A stretch of DNA of 51,550 nucleotides from a bacterium. GTDB lineage: Bacteria; Patescibacteriota; Minisyncoccia; CAIUEV01. Where the stretch lies: NCBI GenBank assembly GCA_021779915.1, contig JAJXZR010000046.1, forward strand, positions 1 to 51,550, given 5' to 3'. Position numbers and translations under genes: made by a program. Below, one piece after another: positions 8,596 to 51,550 of this stretch (its first letter is position 1; each line of letters starts with the position of its first letter). The notes under the pieces were generated by a model, which searched no databases, was not told the origin of the DNA, and saw nothing but the letters and a program-made list of their open reading frames with translations.

Positions 8596-9720
8596 TCTTT
8601 CTGCTGATTTTCCCAGTTTAAGTAGCTATTTATTAGTTCGTCCAAGTCGCCAGAGAGAACTTTATCCACCTGGGACGTGGAGAAATTGGTGCGGTGGTCT
8701 TTTACCAGGGTGTAGGGCTGAAGAACATAAGATCTGATTTGATTTCCCCAGGCTGCATCTTTTCTTTCTCCCCTCAAGGAAAGAAGATTTTCTTTATCCG
8801 CTTCTTCTTTTCGCTTAAGTAACTTGGCTTTAAGAACTTCCATAGCTAAGAGTTTGTTTTGCATTTGACTTCTTTCATTCTGACAAACTACTACTATGCC
8901 CGAAGGCGAATGAGTGATTCGTACGGCCGAAGACGTGGTGTTCACGTGTTGTCCTCCTGGACCACCCGCCCGAAAAGTTTCGATTTTCAAATCATTTTCC
9001 TGAATTTCCAGGGGGATATCGGTGATAAAAGGCACCACTTCCACAAAAGCGAACGAGGTTTCTCGGCTTCCCCCAGAATTGAAAGGTGAAATACGCACCA
9101 ATCGATGAACTCCGTGTTCTCCTCGAAAATAACCATAAGCAAAGGGTCCCTTCACCTGAATCTCCACACTTTTTATACCAGCTTCTTTCCCTGGGGTTTT
9201 GTCGATTATATTGACAACAAAATCCTTTTTTTCAATATATTTAAGATACATTTTAAGGAGCATGTCCGCCCAATCTTGGGCATCAGTACCTCCAGCGCCC
9301 GACTGAATGGAAATAACTGCATCGTTTTGGTCATGAAGCCCATTAAAAAGGAGAAGAGATTGCTTCTTGCTTAACAAATCGAAAATTTTACGCAGTTCGT
9401 CCTGAAATTCATTGTAATTAATTCTCCAATCAATATCTCTTTCTTCTTCTGGAATTCCTTGTAAAAATTTGTATTCTTCTGTTAATTTAAGCACTTCGCT
9501 TTCCGAACCAAGAAGAAAACCTATGCTCTCTTCAACAGATTTTACCTGATTAAGCGCCTCCTGAGCCCTATCTTTATTTTGCCACAGATCGGCTGAAGAC
9601 AAACTTTCTTTTAGTTTTAAGAGTTCTTTTTTTTTATTAGCATAGTCAAAGGCAGTGGTTTAGTTTTTGCCAAAGAGAGATGAGGTCTTCAAAAGAGGGA
9701 GGAGTTTGTTCGAGAGACAT
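8592..9720 (-). CDS. prfB: Peptide chain release factor 2, expressed by programmed +1 frameshift
   Basis: RF2 reads UAA and UGA. The long downstream frame (8592-9647) has the SPF stop-recognition tripeptide (HRLVRISPFNSGG) and GGPGGQHVN, the peptidyl-tRNA hydrolysis loop. It lacks a proper N terminus. A 24-codon ORF starting at ATG 9720 reaches CTT TGA C at 9651-9645, the same slip site as in E. coli prfB; shifting +1 after CTT (skipping T9648) joins the frames as ...NHCL-DYANKKKELL. The joined product is 375 residues, normal for RF2. The in-frame TGA gives autoregulation by RF2 level. No AGGGGG-like stimulator is visible before the slip. A TTG at 9602 is an unlikely start, since it would drop the first helix. 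Confidence 0.9.
9645..9651 (-). promoter_or_regulatory. prfB +1 frameshift site CTT-TGA-C
   Basis: On the minus strand the zero-frame codons are TGC CTT TGA followed by C, at codons 23-25 of the upstream ORF. CUU-UGA-C is the conserved RF2 slip heptamer. The normally conserved Shine-Dalgarno a few bases upstream is absent (the sequence there is AAACCACTGC). Confidence 0.88.
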
Positions 9721-9728
9721 AATAATAG

Positions 9729-9844
9729 AATGACGAATGACAAATTTCCAATGACAAATTGATGTGTCGCCGAAGGCGACCTTCAACTGATTGTCGCCTT
9801 CGGCGACACCAAAATTCGTCATTCGTCATTTGACATTAGTCATT
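9729..9844. repeat. Nested palindromic repeat, GTCGCC family copy 1
   Basis: The outer arms are iterated words of the type AATGACGAATGACAAAT on the left and ATTCGTCATTCGTCATTTG on the right. The inner part is a perfect 17-bp inverted repeat, GTGTCGCCGAAGGCGAC at 9764-9780 and its complement at 9793-9809. It fills the gap between atpD and prfB. A nearly identical copy lies at 16119-16241. Confidence 0.85.
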
Positions 9845-9852
9845 TTTCTATA

Positions 9853-12489: not shown

Positions 12490-12600
12490 TAAGTTTATAA
12501 AGTTATAAAGTTTATCAAGTTTATCAAGTAGTATTTTTGATGAACTTTATGAACTTTATGAACTTTATGAACTTTATGAACTTTATGAACTTTATGAACT
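12490..12600. repeat. 9-bp tandem array (GAACTTTAT)n with inverted left arm
   Basis: The right arm, 12542-12600, is about 6.6 perfect copies of GAACTTTAT. The left arm, 12490-12530, is made of the roughly complementary words TATAAAGTT and TATCAAGTT, also with 9-base spacing. The unit separates rpmJ from rpsM inside the ribosomal operon. Sister copies occur at 30558-30660 and 47650-47755. Confidence 0.88.
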
Positions 12601-12604
12601 AATA

Positions 12605-12721
12605 TTACCCTTGTCTTTGCTTATGACGGGGATTCTTTTTGCACACTACATAAAGACGGCTCTTTCTTTTGACGATCTTACAGTTTCGACACCTGGTTTT
12701 TACTGAAGCTTTAACTTTCAT
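12605..12721 (-). CDS. rpmJ: 50S ribosomal protein L36
   Basis: A 38-residue protein found by translating the minus strand: it begins [17 protein letters not shown] and ends PRHKQRQG. The zinc-ribbon ligands Cys11, Cys14, Cys27 and His32/33 are in the usual positions for the C+ form of L36. The gene is in its standard place between infA and rpsM. Its stop lies immediately next to the 9-bp repeat array. Confidence 0.95.
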
Positions 12722-15309: not shown

Positions 15310-16110
15310 CTATACCCAATCCAGAGGGGTCAGAATAATCGGTTCTTTTTCAGTAATTGCCACTGTCCATTCAAAATGGGCACTTAGAGAGCCATCGGAC
15401 GTTCGAAAAGTCCATTGATCCCGAGAATCCAAGATTGCTTCTTCTGATCCAACATTCAGCATCGGCTCAATAGCGATAACCATTCCAGGATTGAGTCGCA
15501 TTCCCTCTCCCCTTTTCCCATAGTTTGGTACCATAGGATCTTCATGAACAGCATGTCCCACTCCATGGCCTACTAAACATTTTACAACTGAATACCCTCT
15601 TGATTTTGCCAAGGACTCAACTATAAAGCCAATATCTCCGATTCTTGATCCAGCTCGGCATTCATTCAAGGTTTTTTTGAGAGCCAGAAAAGTCGTTTCA
15701 ATAAGCCTGTTTTTTTTGTCAATCTCTTTTTGTCGCTCTATCGCCTCAAATTCATTTTTATAGGGAACAAAGTGGGTAAACGCCGAATCGGTAAAAAGCC
15801 CTTTATATTTTATTCCTGCATCAATTCCCACTATGTCACCTTCATTTATTTTTTTTTCAAAAGGAATTCCGTGAACTATTTCATCGTTTTTTGACATGCA
15901 AATGTGGGCGGGAAATCCTTCGTATTGATAAAAGGAACAATAAGCATGATATTTTTTTGCCATCTCTTTAGCTTTTCTATCCAAATCTTCTCCCTTGGCT
16001 CCTGGGACAAGCATGGTTCTAAGTTTTTCAAGAATGCTGGCAAGAATCAAACCGCCTTCCTTCAAAATTTCAATTTCTTTAGGAGATTTAAGGGTGATTT
16101 TAGAAGACAT
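15310..16110 (-). CDS. map: Methionine aminopeptidase, type I
   Basis: Removes the initiator Met from nascent proteins. The five metal ligands of the pita-bread fold are visible: Asp in GIDAGIKY, Asp in FTDSAFTH, His in GHGVGHAVHEDP, Glu in AIEPML and Glu in EWTVAITE. The substrate His lies in FPAHICMS. At 266 residues it is slightly longer than the usual 250, because of a charged insert (FEAIERQKEIDKKNRLIE) after the second ligand. The gene is outside the usual secY-adk-map-infA order. A GTCGCC-family repeat lies directly upstream. Confidence 0.96.
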   Translation of the reverse strand: MSSKITLKSPKEIEILKEGGLILASILEKLRTMLVPGAKGEDLDRKAKEMAKKYHAYCSFYQYEGFPAHICMSKNDEIVHGIPFEKKINEGDIVGIDAGIKYKGLFTDSAFTHFVPYKNEFEAIERQKEIDKKNRLIETTFLALKKTLNECRAGSRIGDIGFIVESLAKSRGYSVVKCLVGHGVGHAVHEDPMVPNYGKRGEGMRLNPGMVIAIEPMLNVGSEEAILDSRDQWTFRTSDGSLSAHFEWTVAITEKEPIILTPLDWV

Positions 16111-16118
16111 GGTGATAA

Positions 16119-16241
16119 AATGACGAATGTCGAATTTCCAATGACAAATTAATGTGTCGCCGAAGGCGACAATAGATTAGAAGTCGCCTTCGGCGACACC
16201 AAAATTCGTCATTCGTCATTCGTCATTTGACATTCGTCATT
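16119..16241. repeat. Nested palindromic repeat, GTCGCC family copy 2
   Basis: Near-identical to 9729-9844. Core GTGTCGCCGAAGGCGAC is at 16154-16170 with its complement at 16183-16199, and TGACGAATG-type word arms lie outside. Only the few bases between the core arms differ clearly from copy 1. Confidence 0.88.
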
Positions 16242-16245
16242 CTAA

Positions 16246-20364: not shown

Positions 20365-22409
20365 ATAAGCTTCGCCTTGAAATTGAAAGATTGCGGGAAA
20401 AATACCACGTCTATAACGACCCCGAAATAACCGACGAAACTTACACTTCGCTTCGCCACGAATTGTCCGTGTTAGAAGAAAAATATCCCGAATTTAAACT
20501 TGTCCGTTCCAAAATAGACAGGGTCGCCGGAAAACCACTGGAAAAATTTGAAAAAACCATTCACTTATTTCGGCAATGGAGTTTGGATGATGTTTTTAGT
20601 CCAGAGGAACTAAAAAATTGGGAAGATAAAAATGATCGTATTTTGGAAAAAAAATTGCTTTCGAAATCAAAATTCGACTATGTTTGCGAAATCAAAATAG
20701 ACGGGTTGCACATAGTTCTAACCTATCGGAAAGGAGAGTTGGCGATGGGAGCTACCAGAGGAGATGGCAGGGTTGGGGAAAATGTTACTCAAAATATTAA
20801 AACTATTAAAAGTATTCCTCTCGTTTTATCTCAAAAAGTGGATGTAGTTGTAGAGGGTGAATGCTGGTTATCCTCTCAAGAACTCGAGAGAATCAACAAA
20901 GAAAGAAAAGAGAACGGCGAGCCACTTTTTGCAAATGCCAGAAATGCTGCCGCCGGATCCATTCGTCAGCTTGATCCTTCCATTGTTCTTAAAAGAAATT
21001 TGGACAGCTTTATTTATGAAATACACCCGATTTCTGAGGGTTTTTTCCCTTTCACAATTAAAAGCCAGATTGAAAAGTTAGAAATTTTGGAACGGCTGGG
21101 GTTTAAAGTCAATAAAAATTATCGCCATTGCAACAATCTTTCGGAAATTCAAAAATATTATGAAGAGTTTGGCAAAAATAAAAACAAATTCGAATACGGA
21201 ATAGATGGGATGGTAGTGAAAGTTAATTCACCAGAATATCAGGCCAATCTCGGATTCACCGGCAAGTCCCCTCGTTATGCCGTTGCCTACAAATTTCCAG
21301 CAGAAACTGCCACCACAATTTTAAAAGAAATTCATGTTCAAGTGGGAAGGACAGGGGCTCTCACCCCGGTAGCTGTTCTGGAACCAATCAATATAGCCGG
21401 TTCAGTAGTCAGTCGGGCGAGCCTTCACAATGAAGATGAAATTAAAAGATTGGATTTAAAAATCGGCGATACTGTTGTCCTGAGAAAAGCTGGAGATATT
21501 ATCCCAGAAATTGTCGAGGTCATCAAAAACTTAAGAAACGGTTCGGAAAGAAGCTTCAGAATGCCCTCTATTTGTCCTGTCTGTGGTTCCAAGGTGGAAA
21601 AAAGAAAACTCGCAAAAGAAAAAGAAGAGGCGGCCTTGTATTGTTCTAACAAAAAATGTTTTGCCAAGGAAAGAGAAAAGTTGATTTATTTTGCTTCTAA
21701 AAAAGGTTTCGATATTGAAGGAATGGGGGATAAAATAATCGAGCAACTAATGGAAAACGACCTAATCGGCGACATTTCTGATATTTTCCAAATCAAGGAA
21801 GGAGATCTTCTTCCTTTACCCCGGTTCGCCGAACTTTCCGTTAGGAATCTTTTGGATGCTATCGAAAAAAGCAAATTTATTAAAATCGAAAAGTTTATTA
21901 ATGCACTGGGAATCCGTTATATTGGAGAAGAAACCGCCTTCTTGATTGCGAAGTTCATTAAAGAGGATTTTATGGATAAAAAAGTTGTCTCTCCTTATAA
22001 ATTAACTCTTTTGGTTAAAGAAAAAACAATTTCTGATTGGCAAGGAATCAAAGGAGTGGGCGAGAAAGCTTCCCAAAGCCTTCATGAATATTTCAACGAT
22101 AAAAACCGACTAGAGGAAATAAATAAACTTTCTAAACTAGGAGTCCGCATCGATTTGGGAGAGGCTATAAACAACACTGCCTCGTCAATCGCAAAAACAT
22201 CCTTTGTCTTTACCGGAAGCTTAGAAACTTTATCGAGGGATCAAGCCAAGGAAATAGTCAGAAATCTAGGTGGAGAGGTTTCCTCCAGTATCAGTAAAAA
22301 CACCGGTTACCTGGTTCTAGGCAAAGACCCGGGAAGTAAATTAGAGAAAGCTAAGAAACTGGGAATTAAGGTCATTGACGAGGAGGAGTTCAAAAAGATT
22401 ACTGGATAA
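20328..22409 (+). CDS. ligA: NAD-dependent DNA ligase
   Basis: Seals nicks with NAD+. All LigA domains are present in 693 residues: Ia (YxxxxPEITDETYTSLRHEL), the adenylation domain with the lysine nucleophile K123 in CEIKIDG, and an OB fold (GRTGALTPVAVLEP). Next come a four-Cys zinc finger (CPVCG ... CSNKKC), helix-hairpin-helix repeats (ALGIRYIGEETA, IKGVGEKAS) and a C-terminal BRCT (SFVFTGSLETLSRDQAKE). The ATG at 20328 lies inside clpC, giving a 37-base overlap; domain Ia begins soon after, so a later start is unlikely. It is probably co-transcribed with clpC. Confidence 0.98.
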   Translation: MAKNKEKIGDRINKLRLEIERLREKYHVYNDPEITDETYTSLRHELSVLEEKYPEFKLVRSKIDRVAGKPLEKFEKTIHLFRQWSLDDVFSPEELKNWEDKNDRILEKKLLSKSKFDYVCEIKIDGLHIVLTYRKGELAMGATRGDGRVGENVTQNIKTIKSIPLVLSQKVDVVVEGECWLSSQELERINKERKENGEPLFANARNAAAGSIRQLDPSIVLKRNLDSFIYEIHPISEGFFPFTIKSQIEKLEILERLGFKVNKNYRHCNNLSEIQKYYEEFGKNKNKFEYGIDGMVVKVNSPEYQANLGFTGKSPRYAVAYKFPAETATTILKEIHVQVGRTGALTPVAVLEPINIAGSVVSRASLHNEDEIKRLDLKIGDTVVLRKAGDIIPEIVEVIKNLRNGSERSFRMPSICPVCGSKVEKRKLAKEKEEAALYCSNKKCFAKEREKLIYFASKKGFDIEGMGDKIIEQLMENDLIGDISDIFQIKEGDLLPLPRFAELSVRNLLDAIEKSKFIKIEKFINALGIRYIGEETAFLIAKFIKEDFMDKKVVSPYKLTLLVKEKTISDWQGIKGVGEKASQSLHEYFNDKNRLEEINKLSKLGVRIDLGEAINNTASSIAKTSFVFTGSLETLSRDQAKEIVRNLGGEVSSSISKNTGYLVLGKDPGSKLEKAKKLGIKVIDEEEFKKITG

Positions 22410-22531
22410 CAATTTAAAATTTAAAATGCAAAGTTCAAAATTATGGAATGGACTACGCCCATATTCAATCGGTTGTCGCCTATGGCGACACCAAAATTTT
22501 TAATTTTGCATTTTTAACTTTAAATTGTCTT
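22410..22531. repeat. Nested palindromic repeat, GTCGCC family copy 3
   Basis: Arms AATTTAAAATTTAAAATGCA on the left and TTTTGCATTTTTAACTTTAA on the right, with the core TTGTCGCCTATGGCGACA. The right arm ends ATTGTCTT directly before the ATG at 22532, as also seen before dnaB. Confidence 0.75.
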
Positions 22532-22780
22532 ATGTATCTTTACGAGCATGATCGTGAAAATCTGGCAAACAAAATCAATGAAGCCTCTGGAGTTAACCAG
22601 TATTATCGAGATAATTTAGTTTATAAGTTTAAGATGCTAAACGGTCTTGAATTGAGTAATGTCGAACAAGAAAAAATTGTTAAATCAATAAAATACAACC
22701 AGTATGAGGCTAAGAAAATCATTACTGAAAATATCAACGATCCTCTCCAATTAATCGATAAATTAAGAAAATTATCTTAA
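22532..22780 (+). CDS. Small hypothetical protein
   Basis: An 82-residue, charged, helical protein beginning MYLYEHDRENLANKINEASG. No known domain is recognised. An in-frame extension upstream to 22448 is open, but it is made of repeat sequence, so I take ATG 22532 as the start. It is followed by the next small gene after only three bases, so the two probably form a pair downstream of ligA. Confidence 0.55.
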   Translation: MYLYEHDRENLANKINEASGVNQYYRDNLVYKFKMLNGLELSNVEQEKIVKSIKYNQYEAKKIITENINDPLQLIDKLRKLS

Positions 22781-22783
22781 ACA

Positions 22784-23308
22784 ATGGAAAACCAACTAAA
22801 TACCGAAAAAATAGAAACTAATTTTGAAAATATAGAGAAGCAGGAAACGGAAAATCCTCAAAAGATTGAAAAACTGTCAGAAAATAAAGAAATTTATCCT
22901 GAAATGAACTCCCCACAACAGGAAAAAACTGCCTTTGAAACAGAAGGTACTCCAGAAAAACCAGAAATAAGGTCTTTTGGAGAGAGTTTTAATGAAGCGG
23001 AAGTTCCTTCCAGCATTACAAATAATCTCGGGAAAAGTATTGAAAGTTTAAAAACAATAATTGACAATCCCGCTCAAGAATTAGACATGGAAAGCAATTC
23101 GGTCTATGAAACTAACATTTATCAGGTAGCAGAAAATATCCTTGCTTTGGCGGGAGACAATCAGGGTCGGATTGAAAATGGAATAGAAAAAGCAGCTTCT
23201 GTTCTTACTTCCACTCTTCCACAAGAACAAAAAATTGCCACTAAAGAATACTTGATAGAAGTCCTAAGACAAAAAATCACTGAAAAAATTCAAAAAGCTG
23301 GGATCTAA
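22784..23308 (+). CDS. Acidic hypothetical protein
   Basis: A 174-residue protein. The first ~90 residues are Glu/Lys/Asn/Thr-rich and look disordered; the last ~80 (SNSVYETNIYQVAENILALAGD onward) look helical and globular. No membrane segment, cysteine or family motif is seen. It starts three bases after the previous small gene. Its stop codon (23306-23308) is also the first three bases of the long perfect palindrome described next. Function unknown. Confidence 0.6.
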   Translation: MENQLNTEKIETNFENIEKQETENPQKIEKLSENKEIYPEMNSPQQEKTAFETEGTPEKPEIRSFGESFNEAEVPSSITNNLGKSIESLKTIIDNPAQELDMESNSVYETNIYQVAENILALAGDNQGRIENGIEKAASVLTSTLPQEQKIATKEYLIEVLRQKITEKIQKAGI

Positions 23309-23410
23309 TTGGAAAAATCAGTTTCGGGAAACACTTTTTAAAACTAGGGGATTTCCTACAAGAAAATCATAGTTTTAAAAAGTGTTTCCCGAAACTGATT
23401 TTTCCAATTA
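23306..23410. repeat. Perfect 41-bp inverted repeat, element A of a core-sharing pair
   Basis: Arms 23306-23346 and 23370-23410 are exactly complementary over 41 bp with a 23-base centre. Positions 23334-23382 match, in reverse complement and with two mismatches, positions 50768-50816. The shared loop on that strand reads ATTTTCTTGTAGGAAATC between AAAACTA and TAGTTTT. Outside this 49-nt core the arms of the two copies are unrelated. It could end transcription in both directions, but no clear U-run follows the stem. Confidence 0.9.
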
Positions 23411-25664: not shown

Positions 25665-25781
25665 CGGAGTTTAATGAGTAAACTTAAGAATCCCTTTAAA
25701 TATGCTTATAATAAGCACTTTTAAAGATCTTCCTAAGTAATTAAGCCTTTAAACATCTAGAGAATTATTTTGTCAAATATA

Positions 25782-25902
25782 TAACAATTTAAAATTAAAA
25801 GTGTAAAGTGCAAAATTAATGAGTCGTCTCTGACGACAATCAATTAACTGTCACCTTCGGCGACTCCTTAATTTTGAACTTATAACTTTTAACTTTAAAT
25901 TA
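25782..25902. repeat. Nested palindromic repeat, GTCGCC family, diverged copy
   Basis: Arms AATTTAAAATTAAAAGTG and TTATAACTTTTAACTTTAAA, with inner pieces GAGTCGTCTCTGACGACA and TGTCACCTTCGGCGACTC. The 292-base gap upstream of recO holds this plus AT-rich DNA; I see no gene. Confidence 0.65.
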
Positions 25903-25956
25903 TGTTGACCAAATAATTATTCGCAATGCATAATTCAAATAAATAATAGTTTCCTT

Positions 25957-30557: not shown

Positions 30558-30660
30558 ACTAGTTCATCAAGTTTATCAAAATTAGTTTATCAAGTTATAA
30601 AGCTCATCAAGAAATTTTACTTGACAAACTTTATAACTTGATAAACTTGATAAACTAGTA
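30558..30660. repeat. 9-bp word palindrome (AGTTTATCA / TGATAAACT)
   Basis: Left words AGTTCATCAAGTTTATCA, right TTATAACTTGATAAACTTGA. Belongs to the same word family as 12490-12600 and 47650-47755. It ends two bases before tRNA-Ser. Confidence 0.75.
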
Positions 30661-30662
30661 TT

Positions 30663-33595: not shown

Positions 33596-33890
33596 GTTTA
33601 AAATTCAATTTTCAATTTCACAATGCTCTAATTTTAAAAACAAGAGAATTTTGTAGACTCTCTGTGTCATCCCGGGCTTGACCCGGGATCCAGGAGAGTA
33701 GGTTTAGTCTAATAAAATGTTATTAAGTTCAGTTTTTTAACGACAGGCGTTGAAATAACACTCTGTTAGTCTAACTGGATCCCGGATCAAGCCCGGGATG
33801 ACAAAAGAACTACAATTTTTCTTTGTTTGAATAATTGAGAAATTAATAAATTGAAAATTGATTGAAAATTATAAATTGGAAATTGGAAAT
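33596..33890. repeat. AT-word arms enclosing a full TGTCATCC-ended element
   Basis: The element proper is 33665-33803. Its ends are TGTCATCCCGGGCTTGACCC and CAAGCCCGGGATGACA, with internal TTAGTCTAAT and TTAGTCTAAC as an inner pair and AATGTTATT/AATAACACT further in. The whole lies between AT-rich word arms. The 359-base gap before PBP1A contains only this. Confidence 0.85.
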
Positions 33891-34402: not shown

Positions 34403-34445
34403 CTTAAAAAATTAAAAAATTAATAAAAAACCGTTTACCCTTCCG

Positions 34446-34594
34446 TGTCATCCCGGGCTTGACCCGGGATCCAGGAAAGTAGAACTAGTCTAATGAAATG
34501 TTATTATGTTCAGTTTCTTAATAATACACATTAAAATAACATTCTCTTAGTCTAATCATGTTTCCTGGATCCCGACTCGGGGGCCGGGATGACA
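34446..34594. repeat. TGTCATCC-ended miniature element, second full copy
   Basis: Ends TGTCATCCCGGGCTTGACCC and GGGGGCCGGGATGACA, with inner CTAGTCTAAT and TTAGTCTAAT words. Very close to the copy at 33665 for its left half, with the right end diverged. Confidence 0.85.
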
Positions 34595-36834: not shown

Positions 36835-37148
36835 TAGGATTAAAATTTTTGAATTTTGTAATTTTTAAATTTTGTAAATAAATTCTAATTTTTTAAATTT
36901 TTAAACCTCATGTTTATGTGTCATCCCGGCCTCCGAGCCGGGATCCAGGAAATAGGACTAGCCTAACAAAATGCTATTTCAATGTTTATCGTTAAAAAAC
37001 TAAACATACTAACATTTTATCAGACTAACACCACTCTCCTAGATCCCGGGTCAAGCCCGGGATGACACGTGGTTTTGATATTTACTAGTTTAAAAAATTT
37101 AGAAATTTAGAAATTTAGATTTATTTAAAAATTACAAAATTTAAAAAT
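36835..37148. repeat. AT-word arms enclosing a full TGTCATCC-ended element
   Basis: The element is 36919-37067: ends TGTCATCCCGGCCTCCGAGC and TCAAGCCCGGGATGACA, with inner AAATGCTATTTC and related words. It is flanked by AAATTTTTAAAT-type arms. The gap of about 320 bases before mreB holds nothing else. Confidence 0.8.
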
Positions 37149-42097: not shown

Positions 42098-43180
42098 ATG
42101 TTTCTCCCCAAGAAAAAACATATTCTAGTCTTAAACGTTGGATCTACCTCGATTAAAAGTCGGGTTTTTTCTTTTTCCGGGAGAAAAGAAAAAGAAATAT
42201 TTACTTGGAGTAAAAATGACATTGACCCCAAAAACGGACACCAGAAATATTTTGGAGAATTATTGTCAGATCTTAAAAAAAACAATCTTTTTGAAAAAAT
42301 TAATGCAGTCGGTCACAGAGTGGTTCATGGTGGAATGATTAAAGGGAGCTCTCTGATTGATGAAAAAATAGAAAAGATTATCAAAGAAAATGAAAAATTA
42401 GCTCCTCTCCATAATCCTTATAATTTGGAAGGGATACGCACTATTAAGAGTTGGTGGCCGAAAGGTGTGAAGCAAGTAGCCGTTTTCGACACTTCCTTTT
42501 ATAAAACAATCCCTTCATTTGCTTCAACTTATCCTATACCCTTGGAACTAAGTAAAAAATACCAAATCAAAAAACTCGGGTTCCACGGTATTTCCCACCA
42601 GTATGTTGCAAATGTCACTGCCAGACTACTTAAAAAACCTCTTTTTAAACTTAATCTGATTACCATCCACCTAGGAGGCGGAGGCAGTATCACCGCTATA
42701 AGAAACGGGAAAGCTGTCGACACTAGCATGGGTTTCACTCCTCTGGAAGGTTTGGTAATGGGAACCCGCTCAGGAGATATCGACCCGGGAATAATCTTTT
42801 TTTTGGCAAGAAAAATAAAAAAATCCCTTAGTGAAATTGAAAAAATTTTGGAGCATGAAAGCGGTATATTTGGTTTATGCCAAGCAAAAAATATGTTGGA
42901 ATTAATCGAGAAATATCAAAAAAAAGACCCGGCTGCAATTCTGGCTTTTGACGTATTCACTTACCGGATAAAGAAGTACATCGGCGCTTACTATGCAATT
43001 TTGGGAAAGTGCGATGCGTTAGTATTTACAGGAACAGTAGGTGCGGGAAGATCCCTAACCAGAAGAAAGATCACACGCACTTTAAAAAATGGGGTTCTGA
43101 AAAATACAAAAGTTCTAGTAGTTAAGACGAACGAAGAAAAGATGATTGCGGAAGAAACCGATAGAATAGTTAAAAATTAA
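42098..43180 (+). CDS. ackA: Acetate kinase (acetate/butyrate kinase family), short form
   Basis: Makes ATP from acetyl phosphate and ADP, a plausible fermentative step for CPR cells. The protein has 360 residues from ATG 42098; TTG 42065 is open but lies in repeat. Motifs are LNVGSTSIKSRV (phosphate-1), GHRVVHGG, FDTSFY, LGFHGISHQYV, HLGGGGSITAIRNGKAVDTSMGFTPLEGLVMGTRSGDIDPG and DALVFTGTVGAGR. The family normally has about 400 residues and ends FTGGIGEN; both points differ here. No phosphotransacetylase gene is adjacent. The function is likely, but a changed substrate is possible. Confidence 0.88.
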   Translation: MFLPKKKHILVLNVGSTSIKSRVFSFSGRKEKEIFTWSKNDIDPKNGHQKYFGELLSDLKKNNLFEKINAVGHRVVHGGMIKGSSLIDEKIEKIIKENEKLAPLHNPYNLEGIRTIKSWWPKGVKQVAVFDTSFYKTIPSFASTYPIPLELSKKYQIKKLGFHGISHQYVANVTARLLKKPLFKLNLITIHLGGGGSITAIRNGKAVDTSMGFTPLEGLVMGTRSGDIDPGIIFFLARKIKKSLSEIEKILEHESGIFGLCQAKNMLELIEKYQKKDPAAILAFDVFTYRIKKYIGAYYAILGKCDALVFTGTVGAGRSLTRRKITRTLKNGVLKNTKVLVVKTNEEKMIAEETDRIVKN

Positions 43181-43182
43181 AA

Positions 43183-43281
43183 ATGCAAAATACAAAATTG
43201 TTGAGTCGCCGAAAGCGACAATCAATTGAGTGTGAGTTTTGCCCTCGCCAAAATTTTGAATTTTTAATTTTGAATTTTTAA
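43183..43281. repeat. Diverged GTCGCC-family palindrome after ackA
   Basis: Left AAAAATGCAAAATACAAAAT, core TTGAGTCGCCGAAAGCGACAA, right AAATTTTGAATTTTTAATTT. The element runs to just before the next start. Confidence 0.65.
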
Positions 43282-43282
43282 T

Positions 43283-43678
43283 TTGAAAAACGTGCTTCAA
43301 ATCAACTACCACTTCCACTCCAGTCTAAAAGACAACGAAAAAGAGAAAATTAAGAAATATTTGGATAAAAAATTAAATTCCTGGGAACGTTTTTTCAAGA
43401 GATCTGATTTTCCTTCTTCTTTTGGGGTGGAAGGTGAATTTCTACCCAGAAAAAAGCGGTACCGAGCTGAAATTCAGTTAGAGACCGCTATTGGAAAGAT
43501 GATTAGTTCTTGCGAAAAAAACGAAATAATGGAGGGGTTTGACGAAGTTTTAGAAGATCTGAGCCGTCAATTCAAAAGGCAAAAAGAGAAGATTGCCACC
43601 ATAAGAAAAAGAGGAGGCACGAGCATCAAGAAAAAATTTACTATCCATAATGGAGCGAGGTTTAGGAAGACAAGTTGA
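43283..43678 (+). CDS. HPF/RaiA-like ribosome hibernation protein
   Basis: A 131-residue basic protein. The second half (YRAEIQLETAIGKMISSCEKNEIMEGFDEVLEDLSRQFKRQKEK) matches HPF/RaiA, which bind the 30S decoding site and stop translation in resting cells; the first half is less conserved. The start is uncertain: TTG at 43283 and GTG at 43292 are both in frame and both follow repeat sequence. The C-terminal tail after residue 110 is short, so this is an HPF-short-like form. A different function cannot be excluded. Confidence 0.65.
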   Translation: MKNVLQINYHFHSSLKDNEKEKIKKYLDKKLNSWERFFKRSDFPSSFGVEGEFLPRKKRYRAEIQLETAIGKMISSCEKNEIMEGFDEVLEDLSRQFKRQKEKIATIRKRGGTSIKKKFTIHNGARFRKTS

Positions 43679-45076: not shown

Positions 45077-45381
45077 TGTCATCCCTGTAAAGGTTAACTA
45101 ATTCGTTGGCATTTTATTGTTTTAAACATTTTTTGTGTCATCCCGTTGCTCTCTGTGTCATCCCGGGCTTGACCCGGGATCCAGGAGGATGGAATTAATC
45201 TAACAAAATTCCAAATTCCAAGAAACAAATTGCAAACAAGATACAATTTTCCAAATTCAAAATTAAAAACATTATTTTTTTGTTTGGAATTTGTGATTTT
45301 AAATTTGTTTGTAATTTGTTTCTTGTTTCTTGGAATTTTAAGTCTTACTTTCCTGGATTCCGGGTCAAGCCCGGAATGACA
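45077..45381. repeat. Cluster of TGTCATCC-ended elements, one long copy
   Basis: Three left ends lie in a row (45077, 45136 and 45156). The last pairs with the right end at 45381 (CAAGCCCGGAATGACA). The inside is an inverted repeat of AATTCCAAGAAACAAATTGC-type words. GTTAACTAATTCGTT near 45088 matches the element at 15028. The 600-base region from 44978 to 45580 has no gene beyond this and the terminator. Confidence 0.8.
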
Positions 45382-47649: not shown

Positions 47650-47755
47650 GAGTTTATAAAGTTTGAAAGTTTATAAAGTTGATAAAGTTAGAAGGAATAC
47701 ATTCATCTAAACGTTCTTTATGAACTTTATGAACTTTATGAACTTTATGAACTAA
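47650..47755. repeat. 9-bp word palindrome between mraZ and rsmH
   Basis: Left words GTTTATAAAGTTTGAAAG and GTTGATAAAGTTAGA, right (GAACTTTAT) about four copies at 47722-47752. Close to the array at 12542-12600. Confidence 0.85.
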
Positions 47756-48186
47756 TATATTCCCATCTTTCCCAATTCTTCCGCCACTTGTTCCTGCTCT
47801 TTTTCGGCTGATTGCCTGGATTTGTCCCAAACGTCTTTATCCCAAGCTTCCAGTCTGTCATAAAGACCTACTAAAACAACATCTTTTTTGAGATTGGCAA
47901 ACTGGCTTAGGAAATTGGGAATCAAGATTCTTCCTTGTTTGTCAACTTCCGATTCAATCGCTCCGGAAAGCATAATTCTTACAAATTGGCGCATCCTTTT
48001 TTCTCCCAAAGGAATATTACTCAACTTTTCGGCTATACCCTCCCAAACTTTTTCCGGATAAATGAAGAGGCAACCATCAAGACCCTTAGTTACAATTGCT
48101 TTTCCTCGAAATAAACCCCGAAACTTAGAAGGGATCGCCAATCTTCTCTTGAAATCCAATGTGTGGTTGTACTCTCCGATAAACAT
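47752..48186 (-). CDS. mraZ: Transcriptional regulator MraZ
   Basis: A 144-residue DNA-binding protein of the dcw cluster with two AbrB-like SWAPT repeats: EYNHTLDFKRRLAIPSKFRG at the N terminus and ESEVDKQGRILIPNFLSQFA in the second half. Length is normal. MraZ represses its own operon in several bacteria. Tandem 10-base boxes upstream match the known MraZ site style. It is followed by rsmH and an FtsL-like gene. Confidence 0.95.
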   Translation of the reverse strand: MFIGEYNHTLDFKRRLAIPSKFRGLFRGKAIVTKGLDGCLFIYPEKVWEGIAEKLSNIPLGEKRMRQFVRIMLSGAIESEVDKQGRILIPNFLSQFANLKKDVVLVGLYDRLEAWDKDVWDKSRQSAEKEQEQVAEELGKMGIY

Positions 48187-50684: not shown

Positions 50685-50711
50685 TTAGCACTCGAACTTG
50701 ACGAGTGCTAA
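50685..50711 (+). promoter_or_regulatory. CIRCE operator (HrcA site)
   Basis: TTAGCACTC-N9-GAGTGCTAA, a perfect match to the consensus inverted repeat. It predicts HrcA repression of groEL and heat-shock induction. HrcA itself is not in the window. Confidence 0.95.
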
Positions 50712-50737
50712 AATTTTTATTATTCTTTTACCGGTAG

Positions 50738-50846
50738 AGATTTTTTTAACTATTTTTTAAAAGATTGCTTTTTAAAACTAGGATTTTCTTGTAGGAAATC
50801 TCCTAGTTTTAAAAAGCAATCTTTTAAAAAATAGTTAAAAAAATCT
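50738..50846. repeat. Perfect 46-bp inverted repeat, element B, in the groEL leader
   Basis: Arms 50738-50783 and 50801-50846 are perfectly complementary with a 17-base loop TTTTCTTGTAGGAAATC. The 49-nt core 50768-50816 matches element A at 23334-23382 (reverse complement, two mismatches). Transcribed from the groEL promoter it would form a very stable hairpin ending 26 bases before the ATG. Confidence 0.9.
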
Positions 50847-50848
50847 AA

Positions 50849-51550
<702 letters not shown>

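Follow-up and report, generated by a model that had tools for sequence, protein, structure and literature searches.

How two hairpins can share a nearly identical centre while their outer arms look unrelated and still pair without fault is the question raised by two palindromes in the window (the whole stretch of 51,550 nt analysed here). The layout given in the original prediction was borne out: element A (23306-23410) possesses arms of 41 bp and element B (50738-50846) arms of 46 bp, each with 0 mismatches, and their centres, which lie in opposite orientation, are identical at 47 of 49 positions (96%) (Table 1). The core of element A folds into a loop stem of 7 bp, including one G.U pair, with a 5-nt loop and a 1/3-nt internal loop. 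Element B differs at two core positions that are conserved elsewhere; these altered positions form the innermost bases of its arms and jointly lengthen the pairing into the core. No target-site duplication was apparent by eye at either element and the palindrome ends are not sharp. A ranking of the palindromes of the window placed A and B as the strongest, with the remainder clearly weaker.

Table 1. Positions of elements A and B and of the groEL features in the window
Feature	Position	Strand	Remarks
Element A, left arm on the + strand (3' arm on the folded strand)	23306..23346	-	Its first bases are the stop codon (TAA) of ORF 22784-23308
Element A, core	23347..23369	-	T-GATTTTC-TTGTA-GGAAATC-CCC on the folded strand
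Element A, 5' arm on the folded strand	23370..23410	-	
CIRCE heat-shock operator, TTAGCACTC-N9-GAGTGCTAA	50685..50711	+	Upstream of groEL; empty-site landmark in relatives
Element B, 5' arm (46 bp)	50738..50783	+	
Element B, loop TTTTCTTGTAGGAAATC	50784..50800	+	
Element B, 3' arm (46 bp)	50801..50846	+	
groEL (Cpn60), truncated by the contig end	50873..51550	+	Leader contains element B

The genome comprises 1.12 Mb in 48 contigs (approximately 96% complete), the window being contig 45, and was scanned for palindromes stretch by stretch. At least three groups of hairpins with a conserved loop and arms of 36-57 bp were identified, and nearly all of the strongest palindromes follow one design, in which long matched arms enclose a conserved centre. 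The search for further copies across the whole genome, which the original prediction had proposed, placed A and B in a family of about 24 members, consisting of F1 (centre as listed for element A in Table 1; unit length approximately 105-131 bp) and its variant F1b. A second family, F2 (centre TTGT-GAGGACTGTCTGAGCGAAGCGAGTTCCGCA-ACAA), is present in 15 copies, a few of which are cut by contig ends. Only two of the 39 element centres lie inside ORFs of at least 90 aa, though such ORFs cover 83% of the genome. Apart from AT-rich sequence and other repeats, no clear match to the arms was found in genes or other loci beyond the elements themselves.

Other repeats were also observed in the window. 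One hairpin group has the centre GTCGCCTTCGGCGAC (9715-9851, 16105-16242, 22406-22534, 25781-25909 and 43154-43291), its arms consisting of short words (of AATGACG or AAATTAAAA type) that are complementary within a copy and differ between copies. Arrays of 9-mers (ACTTTATGA / AGTTTATCA type) form intergenic inverted repeats at 12492-12614, 30584-30661 and 47651-47767, and also adjoin several F1 elements. A dispersed repeat, TGTCATCCCGGG...GATCCAG, occurs in both orientations (33658-33718, 34439-34499, 36912-36972 and 45149-45209) and is very common genome-wide, one copy adjoining a truncated F1 element at C32:9902.

The genomic context of the families bears on whether they are ordinary intrinsic transcription terminators or artefacts of assembly. 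Approximately one third of the elements lie 30 nt or less downstream of a stop codon, as terminators might, and contigs are broken at palindromes (at the ends of C27, C32 and C21), as might be seen with misassembly. Terminators are expected downstream of genes in a fitting orientation, whereas the orientation of the elements towards their neighbours is mixed and includes antisense positions, many of them lie between divergent genes, and element B is found in a leader, with the CIRCE promoter region on one side and groEL on the other. Against an artefact, most copies have unique flanks on both sides, and the same design was met in two independently assembled genera. Both explanations are considered extremely unlikely.

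The apparent lack of similarity between the outer arms of A and B, as originally described, is true of that pair alone and did not survive comparison across the family. In gapped all-against-all comparisons, arm similarity at more than 12 nt from the core amounted to 1214 for F1, versus 451+-48 in shuffles, and at more than 10 nt from the core to 1463 for F2, versus 484+-54. The best pairs of arms from unrelated loci share approximately 75-88% identity over most of the arm, and some arms are homologous along their full length when gaps are allowed. Element B has an arm match in the C16 copy (p=0.005), and element A has one in the C29 copy (p about 0.05). When F1 arms were compared ungapped and anchored on the core, similarity stood above that of shifted registers to approximately 30 nt and was at background from there outward; the relatedness of F1 arms may not reach into the outermost 10-20 bp in every copy. 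Elements A and B are accordingly not strangers that happen to share a core: as judged from these alignments, they are two distant members of one family whose arms are related and have drifted far, and the impression of no similarity arose because only two very diverged copies had been seen. It had been held that many copies with conserved arms would mark an ordinary repeat; copies are indeed many and their arms homologous, but these are strongly diverged.

Whether such units arrive whole was addressed by relatives that lack them. CIRCE and the groEL start codon are 161 nt apart here, versus 56, 79 and 56 nt in genomes G001, G002 and G003 of the same family, in which the groEL leader is without element B. 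If the full 109 nt of B are taken out, 52 nt remain; if the core and one arm are taken out, 98 nt would remain. The spacing fits an arrival of B as an entire 109-nt palindrome. In the window (50685-50873), groEL carries its own CIRCE operator with groES not directly upstream, and the order CIRCE-groEL is also seen in G001-G003.

A second case was found in recJ of genus g49, which belongs to the same class. The RecJ linker region is 46 aa (sometimes 49 aa) in most of the genomes read, and several species of this genus carry in-frame inserts in it, five of which possess an F2-like centre with different arms. The insert of G294 is 90 nt in length and its palindrome 89 nt, which implies that both arms are foreign. 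G313 and G356 apparently share one insert with arms partly decayed by one-sided changes, and in G358 the core lies in the opposite orientation. The linker, between VQGF.KKYGEYFKIK.G and EKW, is an in-frame insertion hot spot in general, several of its inserts being palindromic and belonging to different repeat families.

These results weigh on the model that accompanied the original prediction, in which a short core inserts and the local flank is then made self-complementary. It would account for the outermost F1 arm positions (31 and beyond), which show no ungapped similarity between copies, for palindromes that start at or beside the stop codon of a neighbouring gene (A, C29 and C36), and for one arm of the G313 recJ insert, which is possibly partly native. 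The homology of arms across loci, in some cases over the full length with gaps, argues against it, as do the groEL leader spacing, which fits the insertion of both arms, and the G294 recJ insert, which is an entire palindrome. An origin of the arms from local flanks is thus very unlikely.

The pairing within the stems was then compared with the differences between copies. Among approximately 1650 arm pairs from 39 elements, 1607 are Watson-Crick, 13 are G.U, 6 are A.C, 15 are other mismatches and 9 are indels, five of which represent one G bulge at arm position 10 common to five F2 copies. Differences between copies are mostly two-sided, that is, present on both arms: 4138 versus 257 one-sided for F1, and 1849 versus 115 for F2. 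Indels between copies are mirrored as well, at equal offset on both arms, with examples of 3 nt at offset 30 in C8/C4 and at offset 22 in C29/C4, and in the nearly identical F2 copies C14:239 and C21:22 a T6/T7 difference on one arm is mirrored by A6/A7 on the other. The core of C21:22, a copy at a contig end, is flipped relative to the flank that it has in common with C14:239. Two-sided changes are often transversions (9 of 12 in C23/C4), for which there is no path through G.U.

The centre behaves differently from the arms. In an alignment of 18 F1 copies, 20 of the 26 pairs of the outer helix show two-sided changes and almost none one-sided changes, whereas in the 7-bp loop stem 15 of 126 cells are one-sided (G.U) and 6 two-sided, the stem remaining 100% paired on one strand. 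This contrast suggests, and does not prove, that the loop stem acts as a selected folded strand and the arms act as DNA copied from the partner arm, the loop-stem numbers resting on few independent events.

Compensatory change of this kind could also be read as selection on pairing in a functional RNA, either regulatory or double-stranded. The strong covariation, the loop stem that varies through G.U while staying paired on one strand, and the excess of G.U over A.C among the residual pairs of this genome (13 versus 6) are in keeping with such an RNA. However, G.U makes up just 0.8% of the arm pairs (13 of approximately 1650) versus 5.9% in the stems of this genome's tRNAs (58 of 989 pairs), G.U and A.C are nearly equal in a sister genus, the elements are in mixed orientation to genes, including antisense positions and divergent pairs, and the mirrored changes include indels and transversions. 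At gathering score, the sole Rfam match in the window was a tRNA, and a loose threshold gave matches only to generic hairpins such as microRNA models. A functional RNA is therefore regarded as unlikely, and the strong selection for dsRNA that had been offered as one explanation is disfavoured.

Searches beyond this genome gave a narrow distribution for F1 and a wider one for its design. A search of 141 relatives gave the F1 pattern in no genome but its own, and an F1 covariance model run on 286 genomes of the class, with few candidates scored per genome, likewise gave hits in its own genome and in 0 of the 285 others. The core pattern gave five matches in GTDB and viral contigs, all of them armless and judged to be chance, and the F2 core was not found in viral contigs. 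In the sister genus, approximately 499 kb of G001 carry 16 hairpins with an unrelated centre, GAAGTCACCCTGCCGGGGGCA, most of whose arms are locus-specific, nearly perfect and approximately 26-34 bp in length, and a second centre, GGGTTTGCTRCGCAAAA, is present in 3 copies with nearly perfect, locus-specific arms. Differences within the GAAGTCACCCTGCCGGGGGCA family are two-sided in 1084 cases and one-sided in 52, with all five arm differences mirrored in one pair of loci. The residual pairs of this family (5 G.U versus 6 A.C) are as expected for unselected decay once the arms have been made identical, and a tandem C.T/T.C mismatch common to copies of the family has stayed uncorrected. One hairpin design evidently recurs with unrelated loops in separate genera.

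Taken together, the elements are probably dispersed, mobile-like palindromic repeats with a conserved loop stem; they would insert as complete units, and template switching would re-copy one arm from the other. An F1 unit, a non-coding palindrome, would insert in its entirety and its central loop stem would be kept, as expected if a spreading factor recognises the folded form. The arms would drift freely, and fold-back DNA synthesis, in which the nascent strand switches template to the sister arm (quasipalindrome correction), would carry each change over to the partner arm. Copies would in this way diverge from one another while each stem remains nearly perfect. Template switching in DNA as the mode of copying, the mobility of the units and the role of the loop as recognition site are inferred. 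The active upkeep of self-complementary stems in the original prediction stands in this form, with DNA copying between arms as the best explanation in place of simple decay or an ordinary conserved repeat; its origin of the arms from local flanks does not.

The arms may be re-copied in place as the DNA is replicated, or else at each duplication of an element by self-primed fold-back synthesis. A fuller version of the latter is rather doubtful: mobile palindromes would duplicate by way of a single-stranded hairpin from which synthesis of the second arm is primed, perfect arms being remade with every jump; the loop alone would be selected, as recognition site, and different species would have unrelated loops. 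Arm correction is not always at work: the G bulge shared by F2 copies persists, a few decayed copies such as C41:34289 exist, and in recJ the inserts carried by G356 and G313 have accumulated one-sided changes. Two reverse transcriptases of approximately 420-430 aa are encoded in the genome (C10:7767-8486 and C28:29559-30239; motif GIPIGNLTSQ / GLPIGNLTSQ), neither of them near an element. The one that was scanned matched general RT models only, below NCBIfam cut-offs; we assume that both are possibly of the diversity-generating type.

Several known systems resemble these families in part. REP/BIME sequences, mobilised by RAYT (Y1), likewise number in the tens and are short imperfect palindromes in intergenic DNA, but their stems are conserved in sequence, whereas the stems of F1 and F2 vary and the loop region is conserved; moreover, the RAYT-type Y1 transposase of REP systems was not found in this genome, approximately 96% complete (no match to PF01797, with control genomes positive). 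MITEs, derivatives of DDE transposons, are likewise small non-coding inverted-repeat units inserted whole. They keep their outer ends, while here these are least conserved (at background more than 30 nt from the core in ungapped F1 comparisons). Integron attC sites have conserved outer boxes and a variable centre, the reverse of F1 and F2. Rickettsia palindromic elements and similar repeats insert in-frame in genes, as do the F2-type cores in the recJ linker of the related genus; F1 is intergenic and was found in its own genome only among the collections searched, and the likeness is one of layout, not of sequence. Mitochondrial double-hairpin elements of fungi are dispersed and combine a conserved loop with variable stems that show compensatory change. 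They contain two hairpins per element and belong to another compartment, and are compared here by layout, not homology. Literature searches for double-hairpin elements and for palindromes of these phyla returned nothing usable.

The closest mechanistic parallel is template switching. In yeast and E. coli it homogenises the arms of inverted repeats, and it has been put forward as a source of perfect RNA hairpins and as the process that keeps them perfect (PMC8604942, PMC7202029, PMC8794818). Quasipalindrome correction shares with the present families mirrored multi-base changes and perfect stems, and its hallmark, mirrored substitutions and indels with few one-sided intermediates, is found here. 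It also inverts the spacer, of which the reversed cores of G358 and C21:22 may be cases. The template-switch literature (PMC8794818, PMC8604942, PMC7202029) concerns mutation at single sites, whereas here the process would act on dispersed repeat families that are strongly diverged between copies and near-perfect within them.

When the paired positions of a stem change together, this is commonly taken to prove that an RNA structure is under selection. The approximately 40 hairpins of this genome and the 16 of the sister genus show near-perfect covariation with hardly any G.U, beside a loop stem in which G.U variation does occur, and this helps to tell DNA arm-copying from RNA selection inside one molecule. 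They form a natural data set for measuring template-switch correction, and call for caution, as covariation alone is not evidence of RNA function.
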